Positions 6,675 through 21,774 of a stretch of 64,000 bases of DNA are shown here, in pieces. The notes under the pieces are model-generated. The model had not been told where the DNA came from. It saw only the letters and a program-made list of their open reading frames with translations, and did no database searches. Source of the stretch: Labilibaculum antarcticum (GTDB lineage: Bacteria; Bacteroidota; Bacteroidia; Bacteroidales; Marinifilaceae); NCBI RefSeq assembly GCF_002356295.1, contig NZ_AP018042.1, positions 3,628,361-3,692,360 on the forward strand, written 5' to 3'. Each line of letters opens with the position of its first letter. Within the stretch, counting starts at the first letter, position 1. Position numbers and translations under genes: made by a program.

Positions 6675-7844
6675 ATGAACGGGAGAAGAAATATCATTAA
6701 CGCATTTAAGTTGTTTGCCTTTTCGATGGCAATCGTTCTTGTGTTTTTGTGCGATTTTGTAAATGCGCAAAGTCCGTTTCTTGATCAATCCATTTTCGAG
6801 GATGGAACTTCTGTTAAAGTGGATTTTGAAACTGATGATTTTCAGGAAATTAAAGACTCAGTTTATTTGTTTTTTGATCGGGATAGGATGCCGGTATTTT
6901 ATTTTCAGAAGCTGTTTACTCCTGTGTGTGATGATACGGTTTGCAAACCAGTTACCATCACTTTAATATGGAATTTGTTAGGGAACTATAAGAATTATAG
7001 GGTAGACGCTAATAAATTGCTCAGCAAACGGGATCATACAAATTTCTCTGATGAGGATTACGAAAAATTGCATCAAGTATTATCTAATGAATACTCTGTA
7101 TTAAAATCGTTTAGTAAGGAAAATCTATCATCCTTGCATCAGAAAAAGAAAGAAGGAGCTTATGATGAGGTAGATGCAGTCTCAGGTGCAACGCCTAAAA
7201 AAATTAAAAATGATGTTGTTGAAGGTGCTTTGTATACCTGCTATACGTTATGGTTTTACAGTCATGGTCTTATAAAGGAGCAATTGCTAAATTATACCGA
7301 TTCGAAGCTTTTTAATGAGCAATTGTTGCATGAAATGTTGCTTTCGAACAAAATGAAGGAGTTTGATTTTGCACTAAATAAGTTGGTTGATTTTAGTGTT
7401 GATGTATATCAAGATGATCTAATTCAGATTCTTAGTGTTGGTAACTCTTTTATTACTGATCGCATTAGTAAAGCTTTGCCAGTAAAGCTAATAAGGGACA
7501 ATGGTTTTGTAGAAGACTTGTGGAATTTGTATGGGAATTTACATTATCAATCGCAAGTTTTGGTTTTGGAGCAATTGAAGAAAAATCATCAACTTGATTC
7601 CAAGCTATTAAATAAGATGATTTCATATTCTTTTGAAGCAAATGAAAGTCAATATGTACTATTCCTTAAAATCTTCTTGAATCAGCAATTGATTAGTGAA
7701 AATCAAGTGAAATTGATAGTGAAATCAGCGAAAGCGAGAAGGGGAAAGTTAAGTGGAGAGTCGATACGATCTCTTGATGTAAATGCTGGCGATGAAAAAA
7801 TGATTTCGATACAGAATAAAATACTTCAATTATTAAAAATATAA
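6675..7844 (+). CDS. Secreted protein of unknown function with SGAT motif
   Basis: The start is taken at the ATG at 6675, because it is followed at once by a signal peptide (MNGRRNIINAFKLFAFSMAI and onward, ending ...VNAQ); an in-frame TTG at 6597 is less likely. The mature protein is about 360 residues. Its middle contains VDAVSGATPKKIKNDVV (SGAT at residues 170-173), which resembles the FMN-attachment motif of FMN-binding domains such as those of RnfG and NqrC. The C-terminal half is helical and may be a HEAT-like repeat. The gene ends three bases before the start of the FAD oxidoreductase gene, so the two are surely co-transcribed and may act together. I do not recognise the family, and the redox role is a guess based on the motif and neighbour. 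Confidence 0.8.
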   Translation: MNGRRNIINAFKLFAFSMAIVLVFLCDFVNAQSPFLDQSIFEDGTSVKVDFETDDFQEIKDSVYLFFDRDRMPVFYFQKLFTPVCDDTVCKPVTITLIWNLLGNYKNYRVDANKLLSKRDHTNFSDEDYEKLHQVLSNEYSVLKSFSKENLSSLHQKKKEGAYDEVDAVSGATPKKIKNDVVEGALYTCYTLWFYSHGLIKEQLLNYTDSKLFNEQLLHEMLLSNKMKEFDFALNKLVDFSVDVYQDDLIQILSVGNSFITDRISKALPVKLIRDNGFVEDLWNLYGNLHYQSQVLVLEQLKKNHQLDSKLLNKMISYSFEANESQYVLFLKIFLNQQLISENQVKLIVKSAKARRGKLSGESIRSLDVNAGDEKMISIQNKILQLLKI

Positions 7845-7847
7845 ACA

Positions 7848-9671
7848 ATGAAAAGAGCTATGGTTTTTAAACGTTGCAAATTTTGGATGATAACCAATTT
7901 GGTTTTATTACTTCTTTTTGGTCCTGCTTTACAGGCGCAAAATCACTATTTGTTAGAGGCTGAGTCTTTTACCACAAGTGGAGGATGGAAGGTTGATCAG
8001 CAATATTTTGATATTATGGGATCCTCTTATTTGTTGGCTCATGGAATGGGTGAGGCTGTTGAAGATGCTATAACGACTATTGACTTACCTGCAAAAGGGA
8101 AATATCATGTTTGGGTTCGTACCAAAGATTGGGCTCCGTTTCCTGTTGGACCTGGCAAATTTAAGCTGAATATTGGTGCGGATTACAGCAAAGAGTTTGG
8201 TTCATCGGGTGAAAAAGGCTGGAAATGGTACTATGGAGATCAAGTGGATATTAAAGATCCGGCAAAGCTTAAAGTTGTGTTGAATGATTTGACTGGATTT
8301 GATGGTCGGTGTGATGCCATTTATTTAACTACAAATAAAAAGGATGTGCCACCAAATGAATTGGTTGAAATGCATGAGTGGCGGAAAAAATTATTGAATT
8401 TAACGGATACACCTAAAACAGCTGGAACTTATGATTTAGTAGTTGTTGGTGGTGGTATTTCTGGTATTTGTGCTGCAGTGTCGGCTGCTCGACAGGGAGT
8501 TACGGTTGCGTTAATTCAGAATCGTCCTGTCTTGGGGGGAAATAATAGTTCTGAAATTAGAGTGCATTTAATGGGCGAACTTAGTCAAGGAAATGATTAT
8601 CCTGTTTTGGGAAGGATTGTACGTGAATTGGATAATGGAGATCCTCATAATGCGAATAAAGATGGCAAATTGTATGGCGATAAGCGAAAATTGAGCGTTG
8701 TTGAAATGGAACCGAATATCGATTTGTTTCTAAATATGCATGCTTATGATGTTGAAATGGATGGTGATAAAATAAAAGCGGTTATTGCCAGACATATTTC
8801 TACCAATCAGGAACTGCGATTTGAAGGTGAGTTATTTGCAGATTGCACGGGCGATGGAACAATAGGTTATGTTGCTGGAGCAGAATATAGAATTGGCCGA
8901 GAAAGTAAAGCGCAAACGAACGAATCTTTAGCTCCTGATAAAGCGGATGGATTTGTGATGGGAACTTCCAATCTTTGGCATTCTTCTTTAGAAGATGAAA
9001 AATCGGTTTTTCCTGAAACACCTTGGGCTCTGCAATTTTCGGAGGCTTACTATTTAGATTCTCCAACATCGGAATGGTATTGGGAAACTGGGTTTTCAAA
9101 TTTTGATCCTATTTTAGAAGCGGAAGAAATTCGCGATCATAACTTTAGAGCTGTTTATGGTAATTGGGCATTTTTGAAAAATCAGAAATCAGAAAAATAC
9201 AGCAATTACAAGTTAGATTGGCTTGGTTATATTGGCGGGAAGCGTGAGTCGCGCCGACTTTTAGGAGATTATATTCTTAGTGAAATGGATTGTGATGGTA
9301 CAATTCCAACTCAAGCTGATGCATTTGTAACGGCTACATGGACTATCGATTTGCACTTTCCGGAACCTGAAAATCATAAATATTTTGAGGGACAGGAATT
9401 TTTGACTGCAACACAACACACAAGGGTAAAGCCATATCAAATTCCATATCGTTGTTTGTATTCGAAGAACATTAGCAACCTTTTTATGGCTGGCAGAGAT
9501 TTAAGTGCAACCCACGTTGCTTTTGGTTCAACCAGAGTAATGCGAACCAATGGTATGATGGGCGAATTAGTGGGTATTGCTGCAGCTATGGCAATAAAAA
9601 ACAATACCAATCCTAGGGGTATTTATGAAAAACACATAGAGGATTTACGGATTTATTTGTTGGGTAAATAA
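7848..9671 (+). CDS. Secreted FAD-dependent oxidoreductase with N-terminal beta-sandwich domain
   Basis: 607 residues. A signal peptide covers about 1-31. Residues about 35-170 look like a galactose-binding-type beta-sandwich (LLEAESFTTSGGWKV, KYHVWVRTKDW). From residue 196 comes a classical Rossmann FAD-binding fingerprint, YDLVVVGGGISGICAAVSA, followed by GGNNSSEIRVH. This matches the FAD_oxidored family often found next to sulfatases and glycoside hydrolases in Bacteroidota. The C-terminal motif NLFMAGRDLSATHVAFGSTR completes the FAD domain. It is probably periplasmic and may oxidise or reduce sugars of the target polysaccharide; the substrate is unknown. It follows the SGAT-motif gene with a three-base gap and is closed by a terminator at 9704-9744. 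Confidence 0.9.
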   Translation: MKRAMVFKRCKFWMITNLVLLLLFGPALQAQNHYLLEAESFTTSGGWKVDQQYFDIMGSSYLLAHGMGEAVEDAITTIDLPAKGKYHVWVRTKDWAPFPVGPGKFKLNIGADYSKEFGSSGEKGWKWYYGDQVDIKDPAKLKVVLNDLTGFDGRCDAIYLTTNKKDVPPNELVEMHEWRKKLLNLTDTPKTAGTYDLVVVGGGISGICAAVSAARQGVTVALIQNRPVLGGNNSSEIRVHLMGELSQGNDYPVLGRIVRELDNGDPHNANKDGKLYGDKRKLSVVEMEPNIDLFLNMHAYDVEMDGDKIKAVIARHISTNQELRFEGELFADCTGDGTIGYVAGAEYRIGRESKAQTNESLAPDKADGFVMGTSNLWHSSLEDEKSVFPETPWALQFSEAYYLDSPTSEWYWETGFSNFDPILEAEEIRDHNFRAVYGNWAFLKNQKSEKYSNYKLDWLGYIGGKRESRRLLGDYILSEMDCDGTIPTQADAFVTATWTIDLHFPEPENHKYFEGQEFLTATQHTRVKPYQIPYRCLYSKNISNLFMAGRDLSATHVAFGSTRVMRTNGMMGELVGIAAAMAIKNNTNPRGIYEKHIEDLRIYLLGK

Positions 9672-9744: not shown

Positions 9745-9887
9745 TTTGTGTTGTGTGTATCTTAATGTGTAATAATAATCTTGTCTTGTTTTGTAGCTTA
9801 TGTTGAAAGACTAAATTGTTTTTTGTTAATTTGTATATCGCAATAATCAATACAAAATCCGGAAATCATTATACACAAAGGTCTTTC

Positions 9888-11969
9888 ATGAAAATCTGGT
9901 CTGCTTTTCTCTTCATATTTTTTATTCTTACTGATATTTATGCACAATCTTACGAGAAAGGTTTATTCTTCTCAGATGATTTAAGTGTGTTAGCACAGCA
10001 ATCTGAAGTGAATTTGGAAGCTTTCTTGCAAGATGAAGTTCGAGCTGAAGTTGCTAGGTTTAAAGAGAGTAAAGATGTATTTGGAGTGGCTAATCAGAGA
10101 GATACAGCGATAACTGTGGCTTTTTGGTTTAAACCTAAAAATATTGATATTCATCCAGGGACCCTTATTGGTGAAGATTCCGTTTTTTATTTTCGTTACC
10201 TGCCCAATCGGGGAATTCAATTTAATCATTACTTAAAACAAGACTTGAATACTGCAGGTGTGTTAACTAATGATGAGTGGCAACACCTTGGCTTTAGTTT
10301 GCAAAAAGATGGGCGTTTAGCTATTTACCTGAATGGGGAGAGTATCTTGAATGATCAGATTTCTCCTTTGTGGTGGCAAAAAAAAGGAAAAATTGTTGTT
10401 GGTAAAGACAGGTACAATGTTGATGCAGAAGGATGCATTGATGACCTGAAAATATGGAATCGTGCTCTGTCCCCTGCCGAAATGAAGAAGGTGTTTCGAG
10501 AGACCAGATTGATACCAGATTTGTCCTACAAGTTGGAATCTTATATGCCTCTGAAAGGTGATTTTTCAGACTTAGCAAAGAATCCTAAAAAGTTGGTGGA
10601 GAGTTCGCATGTGAAATTTGTGACTGATAGTTTAAAAGGACTTGTTGCAGATTTTCAGAATAAAGATTCTCGTATTGAAACATCAGGATTTTCATTTGAT
10701 AATCAATTAACAATTGCAGTTTGGGCAAAACCTACTGATAAAGATTGGGTGATGGCTCTTGCGGGGAATCGCGATTTTAGTATGCGATATATCATTAATC
10801 AAGGTCGTTTGTGGTTTAATATTCCAATGGTGTATAGCTGTCAGGCAGATAAACGAATTGGTTATCCTCAAGAATGGGTGCATTTGGCTATTGCCGTAAA
10901 TTACAATCACAAAATAGAATTCTTCATCAATGGACAATTGGTCGATAGTAAAAGTATTTCTGGAAAAGCGGGTAGGGAAGAATCTCTAATGATAGGGCAG
11001 AGCATTTGGAAGAATACGTTTAATGGACAATTATCGCAGTTTGCTATTTGGGACCGGGCTCTTTCCGAGTTTGAAATTAAGGAGGTATATAATGGGAAAC
11101 TGGATGTGGCTCTTCGATCAAGCTCCCAAAATTCCTATTCAACTTATATCGCAGTTATTGCAATTGTCTTACTTTTTGTGATTTTCTTTTTGTGGAAACT
11201 AACACAAAATAGATTAAAAAAGCTTCGTGATGAACCTCAAAATGAAGATGCCGGTCACAATATTCCACAAAAAAATGCATTCTGTTTTTTCGAGACATTT
11301 CAAGCTTTTGATAGGAAAGGAACAAATATATCTCATGACTTTACGCCGACCTTAATTCGCTTGTTTGCCTTGATTCTGTTATATCCTAGAATTTATAATC
11401 GAAAAATTAGTTCGCAGGAACTATCGGATATCCTTTGGGAAAATGATGATGTGGCACAAAAGAAAAACAACAGAGGTACAAATGTTCACCGTCTGCGAAC
11501 TTTGTTTAAGCAGTTTGATGGATTATCTCTTGTTTATAGCAACAAAGAATGGGAGATTGATATTCCTGATCATGTGTTTGTTGATCTCTTTTATTTGAAA
11601 GATAATTTACCTGTAAAGGGGTTTGATTTTCCTTTTAAAAGTATGCACTTATGTAAGCCATTGAAAAATGAGTGTTTTGATTCAATCGTTCGGTTAATTA
11701 ACGATCAGTATATTGATCTGCTAAAGAGTTATTGTTGCATTGCTTTTTCTCAGAAAGAGTGGAAGCCTTTGGAAAAGTTTGCCTCACTTTGGATTTCGAT
11801 AGATCCTCTAACCGAGGAGGCTCTTAGTTATTTGGTAACAGCTCTTGTTAACAGCCAGCAAAAGCAAAAGGCATTGAATACTTATAACCGTTTTGCGACC
11901 AACTACAAGAGTATGCTTAATGAAGATTTCAAACTAAGTTTTGAGCTTTGTATTTTGCCTAATTCGTAA
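9888..11969 (+). CDS. Membrane-anchored one-component regulator: two LamG-like domains, TM helix, SARP-like DNA-binding and TPR region
   Basis: The ATG at 9888 is preferred over an upstream in-frame start at 9816 because a signal peptide begins there (MKIWSAFLFIFFILTDIYAQ). The 693-residue protein has two concanavalin/LamG-like domains outside the membrane (about residues 60-205 and 245-400, each ending with DDLKIWNRALSPAEMKKVF or SQFAIWDRALSEFEIKEVY). One transmembrane helix follows at about 418-438. The cytoplasmic tail carries a winged-helix region like OmpR/SARP proteins (about 465-560, with SSQELSDILWEND and RGTNVHRLRTLFKQFDG) and a TPR/BTAD-like C-terminus. This architecture predicts direct coupling of glycan sensing to transcription, without a phosphorelay. 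It lies directly upstream of the GH28/sulfatase operon, its likely target. Confidence 0.85.
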   Translation: MKIWSAFLFIFFILTDIYAQSYEKGLFFSDDLSVLAQQSEVNLEAFLQDEVRAEVARFKESKDVFGVANQRDTAITVAFWFKPKNIDIHPGTLIGEDSVFYFRYLPNRGIQFNHYLKQDLNTAGVLTNDEWQHLGFSLQKDGRLAIYLNGESILNDQISPLWWQKKGKIVVGKDRYNVDAEGCIDDLKIWNRALSPAEMKKVFRETRLIPDLSYKLESYMPLKGDFSDLAKNPKKLVESSHVKFVTDSLKGLVADFQNKDSRIETSGFSFDNQLTIAVWAKPTDKDWVMALAGNRDFSMRYIINQGRLWFNIPMVYSCQADKRIGYPQEWVHLAIAVNYNHKIEFFINGQLVDSKSISGKAGREESLMIGQSIWKNTFNGQLSQFAIWDRALSEFEIKEVYNGKLDVALRSSSQNSYSTYIAVIAIVLLFVIFFLWKLTQNRLKKLRDEPQNEDAGHNIPQKNAFCFFETFQAFDRKGTNISHDFTPTLIRLFALILLYPRIYNRKISSQELSDILWENDDVAQKKNNRGTNVHRLRTLFKQFDGLSLVYSNKEWEIDIPDHVFVDLFYLKDNLPVKGFDFPFKSMHLCKPLKNECFDSIVRLINDQYIDLLKSYCCIAFSQKEWKPLEKFASLWISIDPLTEEALSYLVTALVNSQQKQKALNTYNRFATNYKSMLNEDFKLSFELCILPNS

Positions 11970-12063
11970 GCGATAAGCTACGAATATTGTTCCTATTCTT
12001 GTTCTCTCCCAACACAATTCGGATTTCAGTAAAATCTTATTAAATAGAGGGGTGTTCTGTATT

Positions 12064-12092
12064 TTACCCCATTTATTACCCCCTCATTACCC
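12064..12092 (+). promoter_or_regulatory. Three phased TTACCC direct repeats, putative operator
   Basis: TTACCCC starts at 12064 and 12076, and TTACCC at 12087, giving spacings of 12 and 11 bases, about one helical turn. They lie about 100 bases before the first gene of the rightward GH28 operon and just after the gene for the SARP-like regulator. SARP-type regulators are known to bind heptamer direct repeats with an 11-base period, so this is a good candidate binding site. The pairing of this site with that regulator is inference. Confidence 0.6.
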
Positions 12093-12190: not shown

Positions 12191-13615
12191 ATGAAAAAGG
12201 GAAAATTAAATCTTCTGAATGGTAAGAGAATTGCAAGTCGCCTAAGTTTTGTGCTTGTATTGTTAGGCCTGTTTACAGTACAAGCTTTCTCAAAAAATTA
12301 CAATGTTATTGATTTTGGTGCCAAAGCGGATGGTATTACTAAAGATACCAAAGCAGTGCAGTCGGCAATTAATGCTTGCACTGAAAATGGAGGCGGAACT
12401 GTTCTTATTCCTGGTGGGAAAACTGTTGTGATAGGAACGATTTACTTGAAGGATTTTGTCACACTGCATGTTGAAAATGGTGCGGTATTATTGGGCAGTC
12501 CTGATATTTCCGACTACGCGAATGATACCCACAAAAACATGTATAAGAATGAGCCACATATGGATAAGTGCCTTATTTTCGCGAAGGATGTTAAGTCGTT
12601 TGCCATTGAAGGTTATGGTACAATTGACGGAAATGGTCATCAGAAATTTTTTAATGGAAAGACAGGGCGTCCAATGATGATGCGCTTTTTGAACTGTTCC
12701 GATATTCATATGAATAACATTACACTTGTTAATCCGGCCGCCTGGACATCAGCTTGGTTGTATTGTAATGAAATAAGTATAAATGGGATTCGTATTCATA
12801 GTCGTTCGAATAATAATGGCGATGGTCTCGATTTTGATGGTTGTACCAATGTGCGAGTAAGTAATTGTTCGTTTGATAATAGCGATGATTCTATTTGTTT
12901 GCAATCATCATCGAAAGACAAACCTTGTAAAGATGTAGTGATTTCAAATTGTATTTTCGAGACCAAATGGGGCGGTATGCGAATCGGATTAATGTCGCAA
13001 GGAGATTTTGAGTCTGTAACTGTTACCAATTGCACCTTTAAAAATATTCAAGATTCAGGCTTGAAAATTCAAATGAATGAAGGTGGAGCCATGAAAAATA
13101 TGACTTTCTCGAATTTGGTGATGAAAAATGTACCGCGCCCAATTTTTATGACTTTCTGCCAGCAACGTGCGGGTGACAATACGCCTGAAGAAATGTTTCC
13201 AATGAAAGAAATGAAGAATTTCACATTTCAAAATATCATTGTAGACAATACAGAATTGGATAAGAATTCAGCATTTCTATTCTCTGGATTACTAGGTCAT
13301 AATATCGAGAACATCATTCTTAAGGACATACAGTTTTTTGTTTCTGGTGGCGGAACCAAAGAAGATGCAACGAAAACTGATTTGAATGAATACACATTAG
13401 AAACTCTAAAAGGATGGTGGCCTGAATTTAGTCTCGTTGGCACTTTGCCAGCATCGGGTGTTTACATGCGACATATGGAAAATGTATTTATCGAAAATTT
13501 TCATTTAACCGTTGTTGGTGACGATGCTCGTAAGCCAATCATACTGAATGATGTGACCAATGGCAATGTGGAGAAGTTTTATTTGAATGGGAAGAAGATA
13601 AATTATAAGAACTAA
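12191..13615 (+). CDS. Glycoside hydrolase family 28 (polygalacturonase-like)
   Basis: 474 residues with an N-terminal secretion signal (about 1-35). The mature part starts with NYNVIDFGAKADGITKDTKA, the standard opening of GH28 right-handed beta-helix enzymes. Catalytic-region motifs are present in order: N-N-N-G-D-G (207-212, in place of NTDG), S-D-D (231-233) and G-G-M-R-I-G (261-266, in place of RIK). GH28 enzymes hydrolyse galacturonic-acid linkages in pectin-type polymers, and relatives act on other uronates. It is the first gene of a six-gene rightward operon that alternates glycosidases and sulfatases, so its substrate is probably a sulfated uronate-containing glycan. The exact linkage is not predictable. 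Confidence 0.9.
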   Translation: MKKGKLNLLNGKRIASRLSFVLVLLGLFTVQAFSKNYNVIDFGAKADGITKDTKAVQSAINACTENGGGTVLIPGGKTVVIGTIYLKDFVTLHVENGAVLLGSPDISDYANDTHKNMYKNEPHMDKCLIFAKDVKSFAIEGYGTIDGNGHQKFFNGKTGRPMMMRFLNCSDIHMNNITLVNPAAWTSAWLYCNEISINGIRIHSRSNNNGDGLDFDGCTNVRVSNCSFDNSDDSICLQSSSKDKPCKDVVISNCIFETKWGGMRIGLMSQGDFESVTVTNCTFKNIQDSGLKIQMNEGGAMKNMTFSNLVMKNVPRPIFMTFCQQRAGDNTPEEMFPMKEMKNFTFQNIIVDNTELDKNSAFLFSGLLGHNIENIILKDIQFFVSGGGTKEDATKTDLNEYTLETLKGWWPEFSLVGTLPASGVYMRHMENVFIENFHLTVVGDDARKPIILNDVTNGNVEKFYLNGKKINYKN

Positions 13616-13647
13616 TAGCATTTTCAACTTTTATAAACTATAAAACC

Positions 13648-15609
13648 ATGCTCTTTTCAAAACAGATTCTTATATGTCTAGGTCTATTTACAGCAATTGC
13701 CGTAAATGCTCAAACTGATCGTGTTGAGGCTGAAAGGCCAAACTTTGTTGTGATTTTTGCGGATGACTTGGGCTATTCAGATTTGGGTTGTTATGGAGGT
13801 GAAATTAAAACTCCAAACATCGACTGTTTGGCATATAATGGATTGAGGTTTTCCAATTTTATGACAGGTTCAAAATGCGCTCCTTCAAGAGCTTCCTTAT
13901 TAACTGGCTTATATCCAATCGAAACTGGCTGTGTGGGACCTCCTACACAAATGGAAAATGGAATTACCATTGCCGAATTACTAAAACGAGCTGGATACAG
14001 AACATTGATGTCTGGAAAATGGCATGCAAAAGAGAATCCTGTGAAGCGTGGTTTCGATCATTTCTTTGGAGTGACTAATGGTGCTTTTAACTATTTTAAA
14101 CCTGGACTGAAGCAAATATATATGGAAGATGAAAAAATATTTTCACCATATAAACCTGAAAATAAGGATCAGTTTTATACTACAGATGCTTTTACGGATA
14201 AAGCTGTCAAATACTTAGATGATTATAAAAATGATGATGATCCATTTTTCTTGTATGTCGCCTACAATGCTCCGCACTGGCCACTTCAGGCTTGGCCTGA
14301 AGATATAGAGAAATACAAAGGGAAGTATTTAAAAGGATGGGATCAAATTCGGAATGAAAGGTATGAGCGACAAAAAGAGATGGGGATTGTTCCAAAAGAA
14401 TGGTCGCTGCCAATGCGAGATACACTCGTACAGGCATGGGAAGATTACCAAAATAAGGATGCCGCTGATTTAACGATGGCGACCTATGCCGCAATGATAG
14501 ATCGCCTGGATCAGAATGTGGGACGCATATTGGCAAAGCTGAAAGAAACCGGAAAGGATAAAAATACAATTGTAATTTTTTTATCGGACAATGGTGCTTG
14601 CGCTGAAGGACACATGTGGGATGGAAAGGATGCCAAAACAAAACCCGGAGGAAAAACTTCACAAGCTAAACTTGGCGTTGAATGGGCACATGCATCTAAT
14701 ACGCCATTTCGGAAATACAAACGTTCAACATTTAATGGCGGTCAATTGAGTCCATTTATTATTTATTGGCCTGAACATATCTCTGATAAAGGGAAGATTG
14801 TAAGTGATAAAGGAAACATAGCCGACCTGATGCCTACATTCGCGGAACTTGCAGGAATCAAATATCCGGAAGGGGAAGTTTTAAAAGTAAAAGATGAATC
14901 TTCTCTTAAATCAGAATGGATAATTCAACCACTTTCGGGCAAGAGCTTGCTTCCGATAATTAGAAATACCGATAGAACACAACGCGAGCATTTCTTCGGT
15001 TATTTTCAAGGAGCTAGAATGATGATCTCGGATGATTGGAAAATTGTTTCGGATGGTGGAGATGCTGCAATACTTCATTTATACAATTATCCATGGGAAT
15101 TGTACGATTTAAAGAACGATGGAACGGAAACGAAAGATTTAGCAGGTGAATATCCCAATAGGGTAGATTCTTTGGATAGAATTTATCGAAACTGGATTGA
15201 TGAGACGGATCATCTTACAGGAATAAAACAGCACGAATATTTTCAACCTCGTTACACAAAAGAACAAAGGGAGGTAGCAACGAAAATGGAATCAGATTCC
15301 ATATTGAAGAAACTTCTTGAAGACAGACGAAGCATTGGTTTATCTATTGTAGAAATTCTCAAGCAACAACATGTAAAAATGAAAACGACTTTAGGGATGG
15401 AAAAAACACCAATGTCTTATTTTGGGTTTGTTGAAAGTGGTCGTAAATACAAAGACTCCAATAAGGAATTAGCAAGCCTTTATTCAGATTGGGATAAAAA
15501 TAAAAAGCTTTCTCGTCAACACTGTACAAATGCTGGATCAATATGTCTGGAAGTTTGGAATATTCAGGAACGAATTCGAGTAAAAACATCATCTATTGAA
15601 GTAAACTAA
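13648..15609 (+). CDS. Sulfatase, formylglycine-dependent
   Basis: 653 residues, longer than most sulfatases of this cluster. The signal peptide (1-21) is followed by PNFVVIFADDLGYSDLGCYG. The formylglycine motif is C77-A-P-S-R, with SGKWHAKENPVKRGFDHFFG supplying the second conserved block and FLSDNGAC a metal-site segment. An insertion between about residues 215 and 265 and a helical tail after residue 560 make up the extra length. It starts 32 bases after the GH28 gene and ends 13 bases before the GH29 gene, fitting one transcript. The general fold resembles arylsulfatase A/B-like S1 enzymes. The sulfated position removed is unknown. Confidence 0.93.
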   Translation: MLFSKQILICLGLFTAIAVNAQTDRVEAERPNFVVIFADDLGYSDLGCYGGEIKTPNIDCLAYNGLRFSNFMTGSKCAPSRASLLTGLYPIETGCVGPPTQMENGITIAELLKRAGYRTLMSGKWHAKENPVKRGFDHFFGVTNGAFNYFKPGLKQIYMEDEKIFSPYKPENKDQFYTTDAFTDKAVKYLDDYKNDDDPFFLYVAYNAPHWPLQAWPEDIEKYKGKYLKGWDQIRNERYERQKEMGIVPKEWSLPMRDTLVQAWEDYQNKDAADLTMATYAAMIDRLDQNVGRILAKLKETGKDKNTIVIFLSDNGACAEGHMWDGKDAKTKPGGKTSQAKLGVEWAHASNTPFRKYKRSTFNGGQLSPFIIYWPEHISDKGKIVSDKGNIADLMPTFAELAGIKYPEGEVLKVKDESSLKSEWIIQPLSGKSLLPIIRNTDRTQREHFFGYFQGARMMISDDWKIVSDGGDAAILHLYNYPWELYDLKNDGTETKDLAGEYPNRVDSLDRIYRNWIDETDHLTGIKQHEYFQPRYTKEQREVATKMESDSILKKLLEDRRSIGLSIVEILKQQHVKMKTTLGMEKTPMSYFGFVESGRKYKDSNKELASLYSDWDKNKKLSRQHCTNAGSICLEVWNIQERIRVKTSSIEVN

Positions 15610-15622
15610 ATAGTAGCTCAAA

Positions 15623-17020
15623 ATGAAAAAGATCACAATCCCCGTATTATTACTAATGGTAGCTGTGCTAATTTCTTGCAGTCAGAAGACAACTGAAAAA
15701 AAGCAGAAAAGCTTTGAAAACAATTGGGCATCGCTTCGAAATCATCAAACGCCGGAATGGTTAGCTGATGCAAAGTTTGGAATTTATTGCCACTGGGGAA
15801 TTCAAACGCTTTCTTACCAAAAAGAAAACGAGAATCTCTCGAAGGATGAATTGATTCCCTTGTTTAAAGGTGAAAAATTCGATGGTGATGAATGGGCTAA
15901 AATGTTTGAAACAGCTGGGGCAAAGTTTGGCGGTGTTATTGGTTGGCACGGAAGTGATTACAAGCATTGGGATAGTCAGTATTCAGATTATAATTCTTTT
16001 AAAATGAGTCCTCATATTGATATTGTTGGCGAGGTATCAAAGGCTGTAAAGAAACGAGGCATGAAATTTTTAGTTTCTTATCATTCTATTAAAGATGCTG
16101 ATTGGATTGATTATGCAAAAGAGGGAGTTGATAAGTATGATCCGGATATTTTTTGGGTAGATGCGAGTTTTGGAGGAACCAAAGGTGCGAATCATGAAAA
16201 AACCTTACGGAAATCGAAATACATTGGAGAATCAGAGAAGCCAAGTCAAGTTTTTAATGAGAAATATCAGCGTAGCTTTATTACCTATTTTTATAACAAA
16301 GCAATAGAACGCGAGAAGGCAGTTGAGTTCGTGTATAAATCGAATGATATTCCACCCTGTGTTGGAATGCGCGATTTTGAAAACGGCATTCTAAACGAAA
16401 CATCATATGATGTTTGGATGACGGATATGGATATGAGCCTTCCTCCTGATTGGGCTACTCATGGTTGGTTTTATCGGGAAGGTGTACCTCTTCGATCGGC
16501 AAATACAATGGTTGATATGTTGATGGATGTAGTCAGTAAAAATGGGGTTTTACTTTTGAATATTCCTCCATTGGCGGATGGAAGCTTTCCTAAAGAAGTA
16601 AGAGATAATCTCACAAAAATGGGCGATTGGTTGAAGAAGAATGGCGAAGCCGTTTACAATACATCTCCTTGGTTTATTTATGGGGAAGGACCAACTGAAA
16701 TTCCTGAAGGAAATTATACTTTTCATCACAACAATCACTTTGGACAGATTTCATATTCGAAAGAGGATATCCGATTTACGGTAAATGGTGATTATTTATA
16801 TGCAACATGTTTGGGTAAACCCGATGGAAACTTAATGATTAAAGCATTGAATTCGGCATTTAAACTTCGTAAAGGTGATATCCGTTCTGTAGAGCATTTG
16901 GGATCAGGGAAATCGGTAGAATTCGATCATAACGAAAAGGGTTTAGACTTAAAACTCGATAATATTGCTCTGGACGAGATGGCTAATGCCTTTAAAATTG
17001 AACTGAATTTTGATTTGTAA
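15623..17020 (+). CDS. Alpha-L-fucosidase, GH29, lipoprotein
   Basis: 465 residues with a type II lipoprotein signal: hydrophobic stretch then L-I-S-C19, so it is likely anchored to a membrane. The catalytic domain begins with TPEWLADAKFGIYCHWGIQT, the GH29 hallmark. DIFWVDASFGG contains the likely nucleophile Asp, in the place of the usual WFDG, and SPHIDIVGEVSKAVKKRG and VSKNGVLLLNIPPLADG are further family blocks. A beta-sandwich C-terminal domain ends the protein. GH29 removes terminal alpha-L-fucose. The gene is separated by about 10 bases from each neighbour sulfatase. A leftover C-terminus of a different GH29 lies downstream at 18598-18747. Confidence 0.9.
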   Translation: MKKITIPVLLLMVAVLISCSQKTTEKKQKSFENNWASLRNHQTPEWLADAKFGIYCHWGIQTLSYQKENENLSKDELIPLFKGEKFDGDEWAKMFETAGAKFGGVIGWHGSDYKHWDSQYSDYNSFKMSPHIDIVGEVSKAVKKRGMKFLVSYHSIKDADWIDYAKEGVDKYDPDIFWVDASFGGTKGANHEKTLRKSKYIGESEKPSQVFNEKYQRSFITYFYNKAIEREKAVEFVYKSNDIPPCVGMRDFENGILNETSYDVWMTDMDMSLPPDWATHGWFYREGVPLRSANTMVDMLMDVVSKNGVLLLNIPPLADGSFPKEVRDNLTKMGDWLKKNGEAVYNTSPWFIYGEGPTEIPEGNYTFHHNNHFGQISYSKEDIRFTVNGDYLYATCLGKPDGNLMIKALNSAFKLRKGDIRSVEHLGSGKSVEFDHNEKGLDLKLDNIALDEMANAFKIELNFDL

Positions 17021-17030
17021 TATCTAATAA

Positions 17031-18590
17031 ATGAGACAATTGAAAGTATATTTTTTTGTGGCCTTATTCCTTGCGATCCATCTGTGCAGTAATGCTGGGA
17101 ATAAGAAGCGGCCTAATGTTTTATTTGCGATAAGCGATGATCAAACATTTGCTCACACTGGTTTTGCCGGATGCACTTTTGTAAATACACCTGCCTTTGA
17201 TAGAATAGCTGGCGAGGGAATCTATTTTTCCAATTGTTACGCTGGTTCACCAGGCTGTGCTCCGTCACGTAGTTCGATCGTCACAGGTCGATATCCGTGG
17301 CAAAATGAGCAATCTGGGCAACACGCTTCATCCTGGATGAAAAAGTATGTGCCTTTTGTGGATGAATTAGCTGATAACGGTTATGCTGTTGGCCGAACAG
17401 GAAAAGGAGTTGATCCTTTTCGGTATGCTCTGAGTGCAAAAGATTCGCTTTGGCGAGTGGGTAATGCCGGAGGAACTCTGCATAGTGAGATTTCTTACGA
17501 TGAATCTGATGACGAGCGTTTTGCAACCGGCATAAAAAACATGAACTATTTCGAAGATTTCAAATATTTTTTGGATTCGGTGAGGCAGGATAAACCTTTT
17601 TTCTTTTGGTATGGAGCCAAAGAACCACATCGAGGGTATGAAAAGGGATCTTGGAAGCAGAGAGGCAAAAAACTAACGGATGTTCAAGTGCCTAAGTTTT
17701 TGCCTGATAATGAAATAATTCGTGGGGATTTGTTGGATTATGCGGTTGAAATTGAATGGTTTGATCTGCATTTGCAACGCATGTTAGAACATCTGGAAAA
17801 GATTGGAGAATTGGAAAATACCATTGTGATTGTAACCTCTGATAATGGAATGCCATTTCCTAGAGCGAAAGCAAATTGTTATGAATATGGTGCTCATGTC
17901 CCGTTGGCCATTCGTTATCCGAAAGACTTTCCAGGGAATCGGGTTGTGAATGCTCCTGCAAGCTTTATCAACCTTGCACCTACCATTTTGGAGATGTGCC
18001 AAACCGATGCCAAAAACATGCAGGCAATAACGGGTAAAAGCATGGTGAAACTGTTAGAAAACAAGAGAAAGGCGAATGAAAATACCGCTGTGTTTTCTGG
18101 AAGAGAACGTCATACATCAGCACGTTATCAAAATTGGGGTTACCCTCAAAGAGTGATTCGAAAAGGGGATTACTTATTGGTTTGGAATGTAAAACCCGAA
18201 CGTTGGCCTGCTGGAGCTCCACAAACCTACGATACTAAGGATACGACTCAATTGAAGGAAATGTATCAGGGAACTGTTTTTGCAGATATCGATGGATCAC
18301 CTTCAAAATCATTTTTATTGAATGAAATTGCAAGTGGTGAGACAAATTCATTTTTCAGATTGGCTTGTGAGAAACGTGATGAATTTGAATTGTTTGACCT
18401 TTCAGTAGATGAATCGAGCGTTTTGAATATTATCGATAACGAGGCTAATAAAGAAATTGCCGATCAATTAAAAAGAGAACTCATCCGCGAATTGGTTCGG
18501 ACAAATGATCCTCGGGTAGTTGGCCCGGACAAGGAGATTTTTGACAGCTACAAACGCTATAGTAAGATTAGGAAATTTCCCAGACCGTAA
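17031..18590 (+). CDS. Sulfatase, N-sulfoglucosamine sulfohydrolase-like subfamily
   Basis: 519 residues with a signal peptide (about 1-22). Metal-binding RPNVLFAISDDQTFAHTGF and a canonical formylglycine motif C76-A-P-S-R are present, followed by SSIVTGRYPWQNE. The pattern DDQTFAHTG...CAPSRSSIVTGR...GRTGKG resembles the S1_8-type sulfatases that include heparan N-sulfatases, but in algal-glycan clusters such enzymes act on other sugars. VTSDNGMPFPRAKAN is the second metal-site block. It follows the GH29 gene by 10 bases. Its stop at 18590 abuts a GH29 remnant, which suggests a deletion placed its end next to foreign-frame sequence. Confidence 0.92.
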   Translation: MRQLKVYFFVALFLAIHLCSNAGNKKRPNVLFAISDDQTFAHTGFAGCTFVNTPAFDRIAGEGIYFSNCYAGSPGCAPSRSSIVTGRYPWQNEQSGQHASSWMKKYVPFVDELADNGYAVGRTGKGVDPFRYALSAKDSLWRVGNAGGTLHSEISYDESDDERFATGIKNMNYFEDFKYFLDSVRQDKPFFFWYGAKEPHRGYEKGSWKQRGKKLTDVQVPKFLPDNEIIRGDLLDYAVEIEWFDLHLQRMLEHLEKIGELENTIVIVTSDNGMPFPRAKANCYEYGAHVPLAIRYPKDFPGNRVVNAPASFINLAPTILEMCQTDAKNMQAITGKSMVKLLENKRKANENTAVFSGRERHTSARYQNWGYPQRVIRKGDYLLVWNVKPERWPAGAPQTYDTKDTTQLKEMYQGTVFADIDGSPSKSFLLNEIASGETNSFFRLACEKRDEFELFDLSVDESSVLNIIDNEANKEIADQLKRELIRELVRTNDPRVVGPDKEIFDSYKRYSKIRKFPRP

Positions 18591-18597
18591 TAATAGA

Positions 18598-18747
18598 AGT
18601 AAAAATGTAATCCTGATCGGTTCTGATGAAAAGATTGAATGGGAGCAAACAGGAGGGGAGCTAACAGTTACTTTTCCAAAGGAAAAACCTTGCGATTTTG
18701 CTTATTGTTTGAAAATTAAGAGAAAAAAAATATTGAAAATTAAATAA
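18598..18747 (+). pseudogene. Orphan C-terminal remnant of a second GH29 alpha-L-fucosidase
   Basis: This 49-codon frame reads SKNVILIGSDEKIEWEQTGG and continues with GELTVTFPKEKPCDFAYCLKI. The combination of V-L-L-G-S, a K-x-W-x-Q-T turn, and a final P-x-x-x-P-C-D-x-A-Y-x-L-K-I strand is the usual last segment of GH29 fucosidases. No catalytic domain precedes it; the sulfatase gene occupies the upstream sequence in another frame. It is not a duplicate of the end of the GH29 at 15623-17020, which differs in sequence. The best explanation is deletion of most of a second fucosidase gene between the sulfatase and the following GH28. The stop is two bases before the next gene's ATG. Confidence 0.72.
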
Positions 18748-18749
18748 GA

Positions 18750-20192
18750 ATGAAAATGTTCAAAAATAAATTGCAAGGCTTTAGTATTGTGGGAGTTGTT
18801 TTGATTGTGTTGTTGATAGGATGCACAAAAAAAACGGTTTGGGATATCCGCGATTTTGGCGCTGTTAATGATAATACAACGATTAACACCTCTTTTATTC
18901 AGAATGCCATTGACGAATGCAGTAAAGCTGGCGGAGGTATAGTTTTGATTAGTGATGGAAAGTATATTTCAGGAACCATTCTTCTGAAGGATAATGTCAA
19001 CTTGAAAATTGCAGAAGGGGCTCAACTGTTAGGGAGTGCAAATCCAAAGGATTATCAAACCATTGATCCTTTTACCGATGCAGTAGGACAACAACGAGGG
19101 AAATGTTTGGTTGGTGCTTTAAACGCCAAGAATATTGCAATTAGCGGCAAGGGAATTATTGATGGTAGAGGTCATCTTTTCAAGACTGCTGAGTTGGCTA
19201 AAACAATGAAAAAAATGGGTGTAGACAAAAGCAGATTGAAGGAGTTTGCAAATAATCGTCCCTTTTTGGTTCGTTTTGTTAAATCTTCACGAATTACGGT
19301 TACTGAGATTTTCTTAAGACAATCAGCAGCCTGGACTCTTCATTTATTTCAATGCGAGCAAATTAAAATTGATGGCATTGATATATACAACCATGCTCAT
19401 AAAAATAATGATGGAATCGATATGGACTCAAGCAAGGATGCAGTAATTACAAATTGTAATATAGATACTGGTGATGATGCAATCTGCTTTAAAACAACCA
19501 GTCCGATTGCGACCGAAAATATTACAGTTAGCGATTGTCGTTTGAAAAGTGATTGGGGAACCATCAAGTTTGGAACCGAATCCATGGGCGATTTTCGCAA
19601 TATCACGATAAAAAATTGTTACATCCACGAGACTCGCGGTGGCGGAATTAAAATTTTAAGTGTAGATGGTTCTAATATCAGTAATATTAGAATTGACAGT
19701 ATTCAGATGGAGAAAGTGGATATGCCAATTTTTATTCGATTGGGTGAACGACTTCGTACCTATCGCGATGCTCCAAAGCAAAAGGTTGGAAGCATTACGG
19801 ATGTGTTTATCAGTAATGTGGATGCTACCACATGGAATTTGGAAGAATCGAGAGTTTCTCCTCCTTCGGGAATTTTAATGACAGGCACAGCAAACCATAA
19901 AATTGGAACTGTGAAATTGGAGAATATTCATATTCATTTGCCTGGTGGCGGATTAAAGGAACACAGCCAGGTGATTGTGCCTGAGGCTGAAACGAAGTAT
20001 CCTGAATTTAGTTTTTTTGGTGTGCTTCCTAGTTATGGTATCATGGGGCGCCACATCCAATCTCTTCAAGCAAAAAATCTACAAATAAATATAGAAACAA
20101 AAGATTTTAGAAAGCCTGTGTTGATGGAAGATGTGGTAAATCAGGATGTGGAAAATGTCAAAATTAATGGTGAAAAGTATCAAATTCAATAA
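18750..20192 (+). CDS. Glycoside hydrolase family 28, lipoprotein
   Basis: 480 residues with a lipobox L-L-I-G-C25, so probably an anchored lipoprotein, unlike the first GH28 of the operon. The mature part opens with VWDIRDFGAVNDNTTINTSF. The catalytic signatures are N-N-D-G (219-222), G-D-D (241-243) and T-I-K-F-G (271-275), corresponding to NTDG, DD and RIK of polygalacturonases. A short insertion at about 145-168 is absent from the first GH28. The beta-helix repeats continue to near the end. Two different GH28 enzymes in one operon suggest that two distinct uronate linkages are cleaved, possibly after desulfation by the neighbouring sulfatases. Confidence 0.9.
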   Translation: MKMFKNKLQGFSIVGVVLIVLLIGCTKKTVWDIRDFGAVNDNTTINTSFIQNAIDECSKAGGGIVLISDGKYISGTILLKDNVNLKIAEGAQLLGSANPKDYQTIDPFTDAVGQQRGKCLVGALNAKNIAISGKGIIDGRGHLFKTAELAKTMKKMGVDKSRLKEFANNRPFLVRFVKSSRITVTEIFLRQSAAWTLHLFQCEQIKIDGIDIYNHAHKNNDGIDMDSSKDAVITNCNIDTGDDAICFKTTSPIATENITVSDCRLKSDWGTIKFGTESMGDFRNITIKNCYIHETRGGGIKILSVDGSNISNIRIDSIQMEKVDMPIFIRLGERLRTYRDAPKQKVGSITDVFISNVDATTWNLEESRVSPPSGILMTGTANHKIGTVKLENIHIHLPGGGLKEHSQVIVPEAETKYPEFSFFGVLPSYGIMGRHIQSLQAKNLQINIETKDFRKPVLMEDVVNQDVENVKINGEKYQIQ

Positions 20193-20211
20193 CAGAATAA
20201 ATAGAAAACTT

Positions 20212-21774
20212 ATGTGTTGTAAATTGAAAAGTATCAGTGCTTTGCTTCTAGTAATGAGCTTGTTTGTGTTTTCGAATGCGAAACTTGTTGCTGCAAAGAA
20301 GACCAAAAAACAAAATGTATTACTCATTTTTACTGATGATCATCGGTATTCGGGTGTTCATGCATTGGGAAAACAAGATGTGAAAACACCAAATATTGAT
20401 GCTTTGGCTGATAATGGGATTGTATTCACAAATACTTATTTGATGGGCGCTTTTTCTGGAGCGACCTGTATGCCAAGTCGTGCCATGTTACTGACTGGGC
20501 GTCAGTTGTTCAGGTTAAAAGGTCAAGGACGCGAGATTCCTGAAGATCAAACTACAATTGGCGAGACATTTAAACAGGCTGGTTACAATACCAACATGGT
20601 TGGGAAATGGCATCAGGATACCAAATCCTTGGTACGATCGTTCGATTCCGGTTCTACAGTTATGGGAATTGGTGTTTACCTAACTGATCACTATCGTATG
20701 CCTCTGTGGGATTGGGATAAGGAAGGAACTTTCGACAAAAAAGATGCTTACTTGTTGGAGTATGATGAAAATGGGAAAACGGTTCGCCGGGCAATCACTA
20801 AAGATGATAAAAGAGGCCCAATAGGTACCGAGAAAACAGCACCACATACTTCCGAAATTTTTGCTGATAACGCGATAAACTACATCAAGGATTATAAGGA
20901 GAAAGATCCATTCTTTATGTATTTGGCTTTTCATGCGCCACACGATCCTCGTCAGGCACCCAAAAAATATCGCGATATGTATCCAGCTGACAGCATTCAG
21001 TTGACTCCGTCGTATATGCCTCAACACCCATTTGATAACGGCCACATGGTTTTACGCGATGAAGCATTGGCTCCATGGCCAAGAACAGCAGAGATTGCAC
21101 GTCAGCAATTGGCAGATTATTATGCGATTATTACCCATTTGGATGCTCAGATTGGACGCGTAATTGCGTCACTGAAAGAAAGCGGACAATATGAGAATAC
21201 ATTAATTGTTTTTGCAGGAGATAGTGGATTGGCTGTTGGTTGTCATGGTTTAATGGGAAAACAAAGTGTTTACGATGAGGATGGCATTCATGTTCCGTTT
21301 ATAATTTCAGGTGCTAATGTGGCCGATAAAGGGAAACGAATTGATGCTCTAAGTTATACGTTCGATATTTTTCCAACTATTTGTGATCTAACAGGTTTGT
21401 CCATTCCTGAATCTGTTGATGGCAAAAGTTTAGTGCCGGTTATTAAGGAAGAAAAAGAGCAAATCAGAGATTATACCTACCATGCATACCGTCAGCATCA
21501 AAGAGCTTATCGTAAAGGAGATTACAAGCTGATTGAGTTTGTACGAGCTAAAGATTACGATAGAAAGTCAAAAAGCGAGATTGTATCGGGTTCAAGAGTT
21601 ACGCTATTGTTCAATTACAAGAAGGATCCTTGGGAAACAACTAACTTGGCTTTTCTGCCAGAATACAAAGAAGTGTTGGAAGGAATGCAGAAAGAAATGA
21701 AAGAAAAGGCTGTTGAATTAGGCGATTATAAAGAACACGTTGATTATGCCTATGATTTTTGGGATTTTTATTAA
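20212..21774 (+). CDS. Sulfatase, formylglycine-dependent
   Basis: The ATG at 20212 is preferred because a signal peptide follows directly (MCCKLKSISALLLVMSLFVF); the longer open frame from 20146 would overlap the GH28 gene. The resulting 520-residue protein has QNVLLIFTDDHRYSGVHALG and the formylglycine motif C86-M-P-S-R, then GKWHQD and FAGDSGLAVGCHG. It is the last gene of the six-gene operon, followed by a clear terminator at 21798-21836. The CMPSR variant with the GDSGLAVG block recalls sulfatases from fucoidan- and ulvan-type clusters, but I cannot assign the subfamily with certainty. Confidence 0.92.
   Translation: MCCKLKSISALLLVMSLFVFSNAKLVAAKKTKKQNVLLIFTDDHRYSGVHALGKQDVKTPNIDALADNGIVFTNTYLMGAFSGATCMPSRAMLLTGRQLFRLKGQGREIPEDQTTIGETFKQAGYNTNMVGKWHQDTKSLVRSFDSGSTVMGIGVYLTDHYRMPLWDWDKEGTFDKKDAYLLEYDENGKTVRRAITKDDKRGPIGTEKTAPHTSEIFADNAINYIKDYKEKDPFFMYLAFHAPHDPRQAPKKYRDMYPADSIQLTPSYMPQHPFDNGHMVLRDEALAPWPRTAEIARQQLADYYAIITHLDAQIGRVIASLKESGQYENTLIVFAGDSGLAVGCHGLMGKQSVYDEDGIHVPFIISGANVADKGKRIDALSYTFDIFPTICDLTGLSIPESVDGKSLVPVIKEEKEQIRDYTYHAYRQHQRAYRKGDYKLIEFVRAKDYDRKSKSEIVSGSRVTLLFNYKKDPWETTNLAFLPEYKEVLEGMQKEMKEKAVELGDYKEHVDYAYDFWDFY

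Follow-up and report, generated by a model that had tools for sequence, protein, structure and literature searches.

A putative membrane-anchored regulator with a predicted SARP fold and a phased TTACCC array beside a GH28/sulfatase gene cluster of Labilibaculum antarcticum

For polysaccharide loci, three Bacteroidetes-specific regulator types are distinguished by Ravcheev et al., namely, SusR-like, HTCS, and ECF-sigma (PMC3878776). None of the SARPs that we found described has a membrane anchor; they are activators, chiefly of actinomycete antibiotic genes. SARPs as a rule activate (PMC10972967, PMC10936776). They recognize direct repeats with a spacing of 11 or 22 bp (PMC10936776), some of their sites have three heptamers, and 11-bp units are termed classical (PMC10972967). 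In the AfsR complex, two SARP protomers lie side by side on two direct repeats, one per repeat, where they contact sigma region 4 and activate (PMC10936776).

We analyzed a stretch of 64,000 nucleotides of the L. antarcticum genome (here called the window), in which a gene for a predicted SARP-fold membrane protein lies ahead of genes for GH28 family enzymes, sulfatases, and an alpha-L-fucosidase. We consider it likely that this protein is a one-component, membrane-tethered activator in which glycan sensing by LamG domains is passed through a transmembrane (TM) helix to a SARP domain that, on a TTACCC array, turns on the GH28/sulfatase/fucosidase operon.

A membrane protein with a predicted SARP domain

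The features of the regulator, with window coordinates, are as follows.

9888..11969, + strand: LamG-LamG-TM-SARP membrane regulator (open reading frame with ATG start, 693 amino acids)
9888..9947, + strand: predicted signal peptide, residues ~1-20 (on the basis of the hydrophobic N terminus)
10095..10508, + strand: LamG-like domain 1, residues ~70-207 (limits from the strands of a low-confidence full-length model)
10668..11078, + strand: LamG-like domain 2, residues 261-397 (best stretch of Pfam Laminin_G_3)
11136..11207, + strand: TM helix, residues ~417-440 (hydropathy; model helix 417-446)
11274..11567, + strand: predicted OmpR-type winged helix of the SARP domain, residues ~463-560 (AlphaFold2 model and Foldseek)
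11577..11957, + strand: predicted BTAD/TPR-like helical half of the SARP domain, residues ~564-690 (Pfam, AlphaFold2 model, and Foldseek)

An alternative TTG start at 9816 would give a protein of 717 amino acids. The Pfam scan assigned two stretches to Laminin_G_3 (E value, 9.6e-40). Weak matches to Pentaxin and Toxin_R_bind_N coincided with the second LamG domain; we read them as the jelly-roll fold that these families have in common with LamG. Apart from its hydrophobic N terminus, the protein has one strong hydrophobic segment (residues ~417 to 440; hydropathy peak of 2.75 over 19 residues from 421), with K/R residues next to it, suggesting that the N-terminal part is periplasmic and the C terminus cytoplasmic. 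Neither a histidine kinase nor a receiver or AraC domain was detected in the Pfam and NCBIfam scans. The preliminary description of this locus, which saw a phosphorelay-free single chain in which a pair of LamG domains is joined through a TM helix to a SARP-like C terminus, is thus borne out by the domain scans, hydropathy, and the AlphaFold2 model. The orthologue from Labilibaculum filiforme (Bacteroidota, Marinifilaceae) is 79% identical at the protein level.

While the full-length model was poor (pLDDT of 60), the C-terminal domain, modeled with AlphaFold2 from an alignment of 27 family sequences, reached a mean pLDDT of 89 and a pTM of 0.73. This model contains, in order, two strands, three helices, two strands, and a helical array. 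A Foldseek search of the PDB returned only six chains at an E value of ≤0.001, all of them EmbR (2fez, 2ff4) or AfsR complexes (8hvr, 8k60), with E values from 6e-6 to 9e-5. The domain is therefore predicted to adopt the SARP fold, with an OmpR-type winged helix followed by an all-helical BTA domain; a fold unrelated to that proposed in the preliminary description was not seen. The motif AKNNRGVNIxKLR, a consensus of the 27-sequence alignment, is strongly conserved and maps to helix 3 of the model, which we take for the putative recognition helix.

By sequence alone, the link to SARPs is weak. The BTAD match of the regulator (residues 607 to 671) had an E value of 0.0031 and a score of 20.5 bits, compared to the Pfam curated cut-off of 22.1, and Trans_reg_C was not reported for the window protein in the Pfam scan. 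Within the family, at an E value of ≤0.1, BTAD matched 7 of the 27 members (best, 1.2e-5) and Trans_reg_C matched 6 (best, 0.015). A profile search of PDB sequences did not find SARPs, its top match being a designed TPR (3.1e-4). Because its BTAD score lies under the curated cut-off, we file the window protein, on the strength of its model, as a SARP-fold relative and not as a Pfam-recognized SARP.

A phased array ahead of the GH28/sulfatase genes

Downstream of the regulator, the window contains the following features.

12064..12092, + strand: candidate operator, three TTACCC repeats (12064, 12076, and 12087) spaced by 12 and 11 bases
12191..13615, + strand: GH28 family enzyme at the head of the putative target operon (Pfam, 6.9e-22)
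13648..15609, + strand: sulfatase (Pfam, 1.6e-66)
15623..17020, + strand: alpha-L-fucosidase (Pfam, 3.2e-57)
17031..18590, + strand: sulfatase (Pfam, 9.9e-33)
18750..20192, + strand: GH28 family enzyme (Pfam, 1.7e-22)
20146..21774, + strand: sulfatase (Pfam, 2.6e-54)

The array begins 94 bases after the stop codon of the regulator and ends 97 bases ahead of the GH28 start, and its three repeats lie where the preliminary description had placed them. The 11-base period invoked there needs qualification: the repeats are indeed phased direct repeats, but the period is 11 or 12 and not strictly 11. Repeats bound by SARPs would be expected to overlap the -35 region, with the 3' repeat 8 bp from the -10; Bacteroidota promoters, with their -33/-7 boxes, differ. 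The genes from 12191 to 21774 presumably form one operon. Because its enzymes are GH28 family members, an alpha-L-fucosidase, and sulfatases, the target glycan may be sulfated, fucose bearing, and pectin-like. The last GH28 and sulfatase reading frames overlap by 47 bases (20146 to 20192), provided that the sulfatase does start at the ATG listed for it. On the other side, two same-strand genes precede the regulator (6675 to 9671), one encoding a protein without a Pfam match above cut-off and the other an FAD-dependent oxidoreductase (Pfam, 1.2e-71). Since neither had a BLASTP match (E value of ≤1e-3) among the open reading frames of two related loci (L034 and L036), the upstream side probably does not belong to the conserved unit.

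The phased TTACCC triple occurs once in the window and in none of 100 shuffles. Lone TTACCC words are present at chance frequency (27 versus 24.4 expected), so that only the phased triple, and not the word itself, is unusual. As the triple pattern was chosen post hoc, the independent tests are the conservation of the array and the family-wide scans described below. The L. filiforme locus (L034) has an identical 29-base array. The regulator orthologue of G014 is 61% identical, and its locus keeps 25 of the 29 bases, against a flank identity of 53 to 57% (51 of 97 and 55 of 96). The repeats also recur in a genome of another family of the same class (G733), where TTACCC repeats spaced by 12 and 12 bp lie between the gene for a 32%-identical LamG-LamG-SARP protein and that for a sulfatase; an alginate lyase gene lies upstream of this regulator. 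The expectation that the repeats stand before orthologous operons therefore holds in L034, G014, and G733, so that, the predicted C-terminal fold also being as expected, neither of the two outcomes named in the preliminary description as refuting it was observed. By eye, an ATTTG just 3' of the array is conserved in three loci.

We then searched 16 whole genomes for exact matches to TTACCC-N5-7-TTACCC-N5-7-TTACCC, using the reversed pattern as a control. The four genomes found with a LamG-LamG-SARP gene (G000, G003, G014, and G733) each gave one match, located beside this gene. Among the other 12, only G536 matched, with two overlapping hits in a tandem repeat within an open reading frame, and the reversed pattern was absent from all 16. 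When up to two mismatches were allowed at fixed spacings of 12 and 11, each of the four genomes still contained a single place matching the forward triple, while the reversed control gave one match in G000 and three in G003. A wider regulon, looked for with this LamG-type triple (exact and with up to two mismatches), thus came down to a single place per genome in the four genomes.

The repeat inside the G536 reading frame has the same pattern and would be in line with the triple being a chance or microsatellite repeat, the regulator acting elsewhere. This is very improbable: the array is an island of conservation, it is present in one copy beside the gene in all four genomes, and distant relatives show the same phasing. 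A microsatellite origin was rejected on the grounds of island conservation and of the single copy per genome beside the gene.

Regulators and arrays across the family

Searches gave matches in 28 of 96 near relatives at an E value of ≤0.01. Across the phylum, 19 of 395 genomes matched at an E value of ≤1e-5 (17 of 171 by genus), 8 of these 19 with weak matches only (E values of 1e-12 to 6e-7). Within the class, 7 of 395 genomes matched at an E value of ≤1e-10; one distant family had matches in 16 of its 80 genomes searched, and the family to which G733 belongs had them in 2 of 13. The membrane SARP family is widespread but sparse.

For the comparisons below, the loci fetched with their flanks, together with the window, provided 50 regulators, which fell into 34 clusters at 50% identity; the 8 weak-match genomes, G832, G646, G496, and a few lesser places were left out of this set, and two predicted open reading frames in family loci contain X. 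Whole-protein Pfam scans of 13 relatives, the window protein excluded, identified LamG sensors in 4 (L138, L081, L083, and L084) and kelch-type propellers in 7, those of P0002 and L073 only below cut-offs; the sensor was unrecognized in 2 (P0003 and L076). A TM-like segment (hydropathy of at least 1.6) precedes the SARP domain in 46 of the 50 regulators. Weaker hydropathy peaks (1.3 and 1.5) were seen in L073 and L132. In L071 (6032 to 9573) and L129, a membrane SARP is followed in tandem by a second SARP of ~260 amino acids without a TM segment, with a TTAACCC array between the two (three copies in L071 and five in L129).

Where the TM segment is clear (46 members), 5 to 53 residues by profile limits (median, 25) separate it from the SARP domain. 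So short a linker could hinder access to DNA from the membrane, a difficulty that would disappear if ligand binding to the LamG domains led to intramembrane proteolysis, freeing the SARP domain to activate the operon from the same operator by another signal step. We regard such a release as rather unlikely, given that nothing points positively to cleavage and that ToxR and CadC are active while membrane tethered.

To look for arrays irrespective of their sequence, we scanned the flanks of one representative per cluster for three 7-mers with at least 6 of 7 columns identical in all three. With a period of 11 to 12, arrays were detected in 11 of the 34 clusters (mean of 0.16 and maximum of 2 in 25 rounds of shuffling), corresponding to 10 distinct regions because the tandem genes of L071, which belong to two clusters, have one common intergenic region. 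A period of 12 to 13 gave 8 clusters (with the 12-12 arrays in common), 10 to 11 gave 3, and 20 to 21 gave 4; no more than one cluster scored at any of the remaining periods (6 to 20). Although the scan did not require it, the unit is clearly TTAACCC or TTACCC in 6 of the 11 clusters and close to it in two more (L073 and L134). The other three clusters have different units: L003 has ATTAAT, L068 one resembling TTAATA, and L084 ATTACA.

The control column of this first scan includes regions shared with regulators, whereas a second scan, for TTAACCC/TTACCC-type arrays scoring at least 18 of 21, used non-adjacent genes only; its consensus was drawn from the same loci, so that the two scans are not independent. 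In the downstream, same-orientation placement, such arrays were found in 9 of 34 clusters and in 0 of 281 non-adjacent genes (Fisher P value of 7e-10). Upstream, only 1 cluster scored, through the shared L071 region, and the controls reached 1 of 281 with the four placements summed. Two hundred permuted motif pairs scored 0.16 on average, the top one reaching 8 after its shuffle had regenerated TTAACCC. Two further clusters scored 16. Taken together, 16 of the 34 clusters have an array by either scan and 18 have none by both; 7 of the 34 representatives have less than 60 bp of downstream intergenic DNA. Some arrays hold four or five copies. Phased repeats are thus linked to the membrane SARP domain in part of the family, and the proposed class of LamG-SARP proteins with phased repeats turns out to be broader than first described, since distant relatives also carry them.

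In other clades, the arrays precede unrelated genes, as might be expected if a different regulator bound the repeats or if the protein repressed its neighbor. We find this quite unlikely. Same-period arrays flank 11 of the 34 family clusters, consensus arrays were absent downstream of the 281 non-adjacent genes in the same orientation, and SARPs are usually activators (PMC10972967, PMC10936776).

A paralogue in the genome of the window, a kelch-type protein of 842 amino acids, is encoded divergently from a SusC-like gene. Beside it, and before the SusC-like gene, lie three ATTAAT units exactly 11 bp apart (L003, 6459 to 6486), which are kept in relatives; with up to one mismatch, this array occurs at one place per genome in all 11 genomes of the window's family. 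ATTAAT is its own reverse complement, and the direction of the array can therefore not be read. In G397, a second exact TTAACC triple (L147; G397:C1:2068909-2068938) lies away from any recognized family member.

At seven loci (L069, L070, L072, L125, L126, L127, and L128; 7 of 50 regulators, 2 of 34 clusters), the regulator and a TTAACCC array are followed by a gene for a zinc-ribbon-like microprotein of 38 to 53 amino acids (CPHCGKPISxxALRCKWC type). No zinc-ribbon reading frame was present within 800 bp downstream of 349 non-regulator genes, and regulator, operator, and microprotein look like a conserved cassette. The suggestion of a regulator class for polysaccharide loci needs correction here, since the family also extends to other loci, some members preceding a microprotein gene.

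Proposed mechanism and comparison with known regulators

In our model, the two periplasmic LamG domains would sense a glycan or glycan fragment, and the signal would pass via the single TM helix to the cytoplasmic SARP domain. By analogy with the AfsR complex, ligand at the LamG domains might place or pair SARP domains on the array, where adjacent protomers would each occupy one of the three TTACCC repeats, at a rate of one per helical turn. RNA polymerase would thereby be recruited to the GH28/sulfatase/fucosidase operon, which would be activated rather than repressed.

The protein apparently represents an undescribed class of one-component regulator. In the open-access journal literature searched, we found no account of membrane-bound SARPs in Bacteroidota, and no paper there mentioned AfsR, SARP, and Bacteroidetes together. 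The locus brings neither a new fold nor a new DNA-recognition principle and belongs to a wider family. On balance, we favor the view that this is an undescribed, phylum-wide Bacteroidota family of membrane-tethered SARPs, in which exchangeable periplasmic LamG or kelch sensors would act on DNA without a phosphorelay, each regulator having a single TTA(A)CCC-type array of its own with three to five phased repeats. Such a family would constitute a fourth polysaccharide-locus class besides SusR, HTCS, and ECF-sigma, with side branches controlling zinc-ribbon microproteins. If so, SARP activation would, in this membrane branch with its lectin-like or propeller sensors, be wired directly to an extracytoplasmic signal, and target operons could be assigned in polysaccharide degraders of uncharacterized regulation by reading an operator code in which the repeats lie close to the regulator, at about one per turn.

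The nearest known regulator in logic is SusR. SusR-like proteins of Bacteroides are likewise one-component membrane regulators with a periplasmic sensor, encoded beside glycan genes (PMC3878776), but their motifs consist of two boxes 67 or 77 bp apart. For a direct comparison, three SusR candidates from three genomes were chosen because they lie in synteny with genes for GH97 and SusC-like proteins (and, in one, GH13), and they are not verified SusR proteins; the one that was scanned had DUF6377 and weak TPR and HTH matches. Aligned with the membrane SARP family by hhalign, the three gave a probability of 0.5% and an E value of 0.11, and homology to SusR was rejected for want of profile similarity to these synteny-picked candidates. 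At an E value of ≤5, the family profile found, in 9 genomes of the same order, two kinds of match: wHTH-only ones in frames of 233 to 319 amino acids, taken by us for response regulators, and weak helical ones in frames of 421 and 478 amino acids.

Hybrid two-component systems also link a periplasmic sensor to a DNA-binding domain in a single chain at glycan loci (PMC3878776). Unlike them, the regulator described here lacks histidine kinase, receiver, and AraC domains. With ToxR and CadC it shares a membrane-tethered winged helix and the absence of a phosphorelay, but the order is inverted: these proteins have an N-terminal cytoplasmic winged helix, a C-terminal periplasmic domain, and no BTAD, whereas here the winged helix is C-terminal to the TM helix.

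Finally, the protein resembles the SARP activators (AfsR and EmbR; ActII-ORF4, DnrI, and PimR) in its predicted winged helix and BTAD fold and in a candidate operator whose direct repeats follow each other at roughly one helical turn (12 and 11 bp here, with a family peak at 11 to 12). It differs from them in the C-terminal position of its SARP domain, which a periplasmic sensor and a TM helix precede, in its Bacteroidota host, in its TTA(A)CCC unit at 11 or 12 bp, and in a sequence that scores under the Pfam cut-off.
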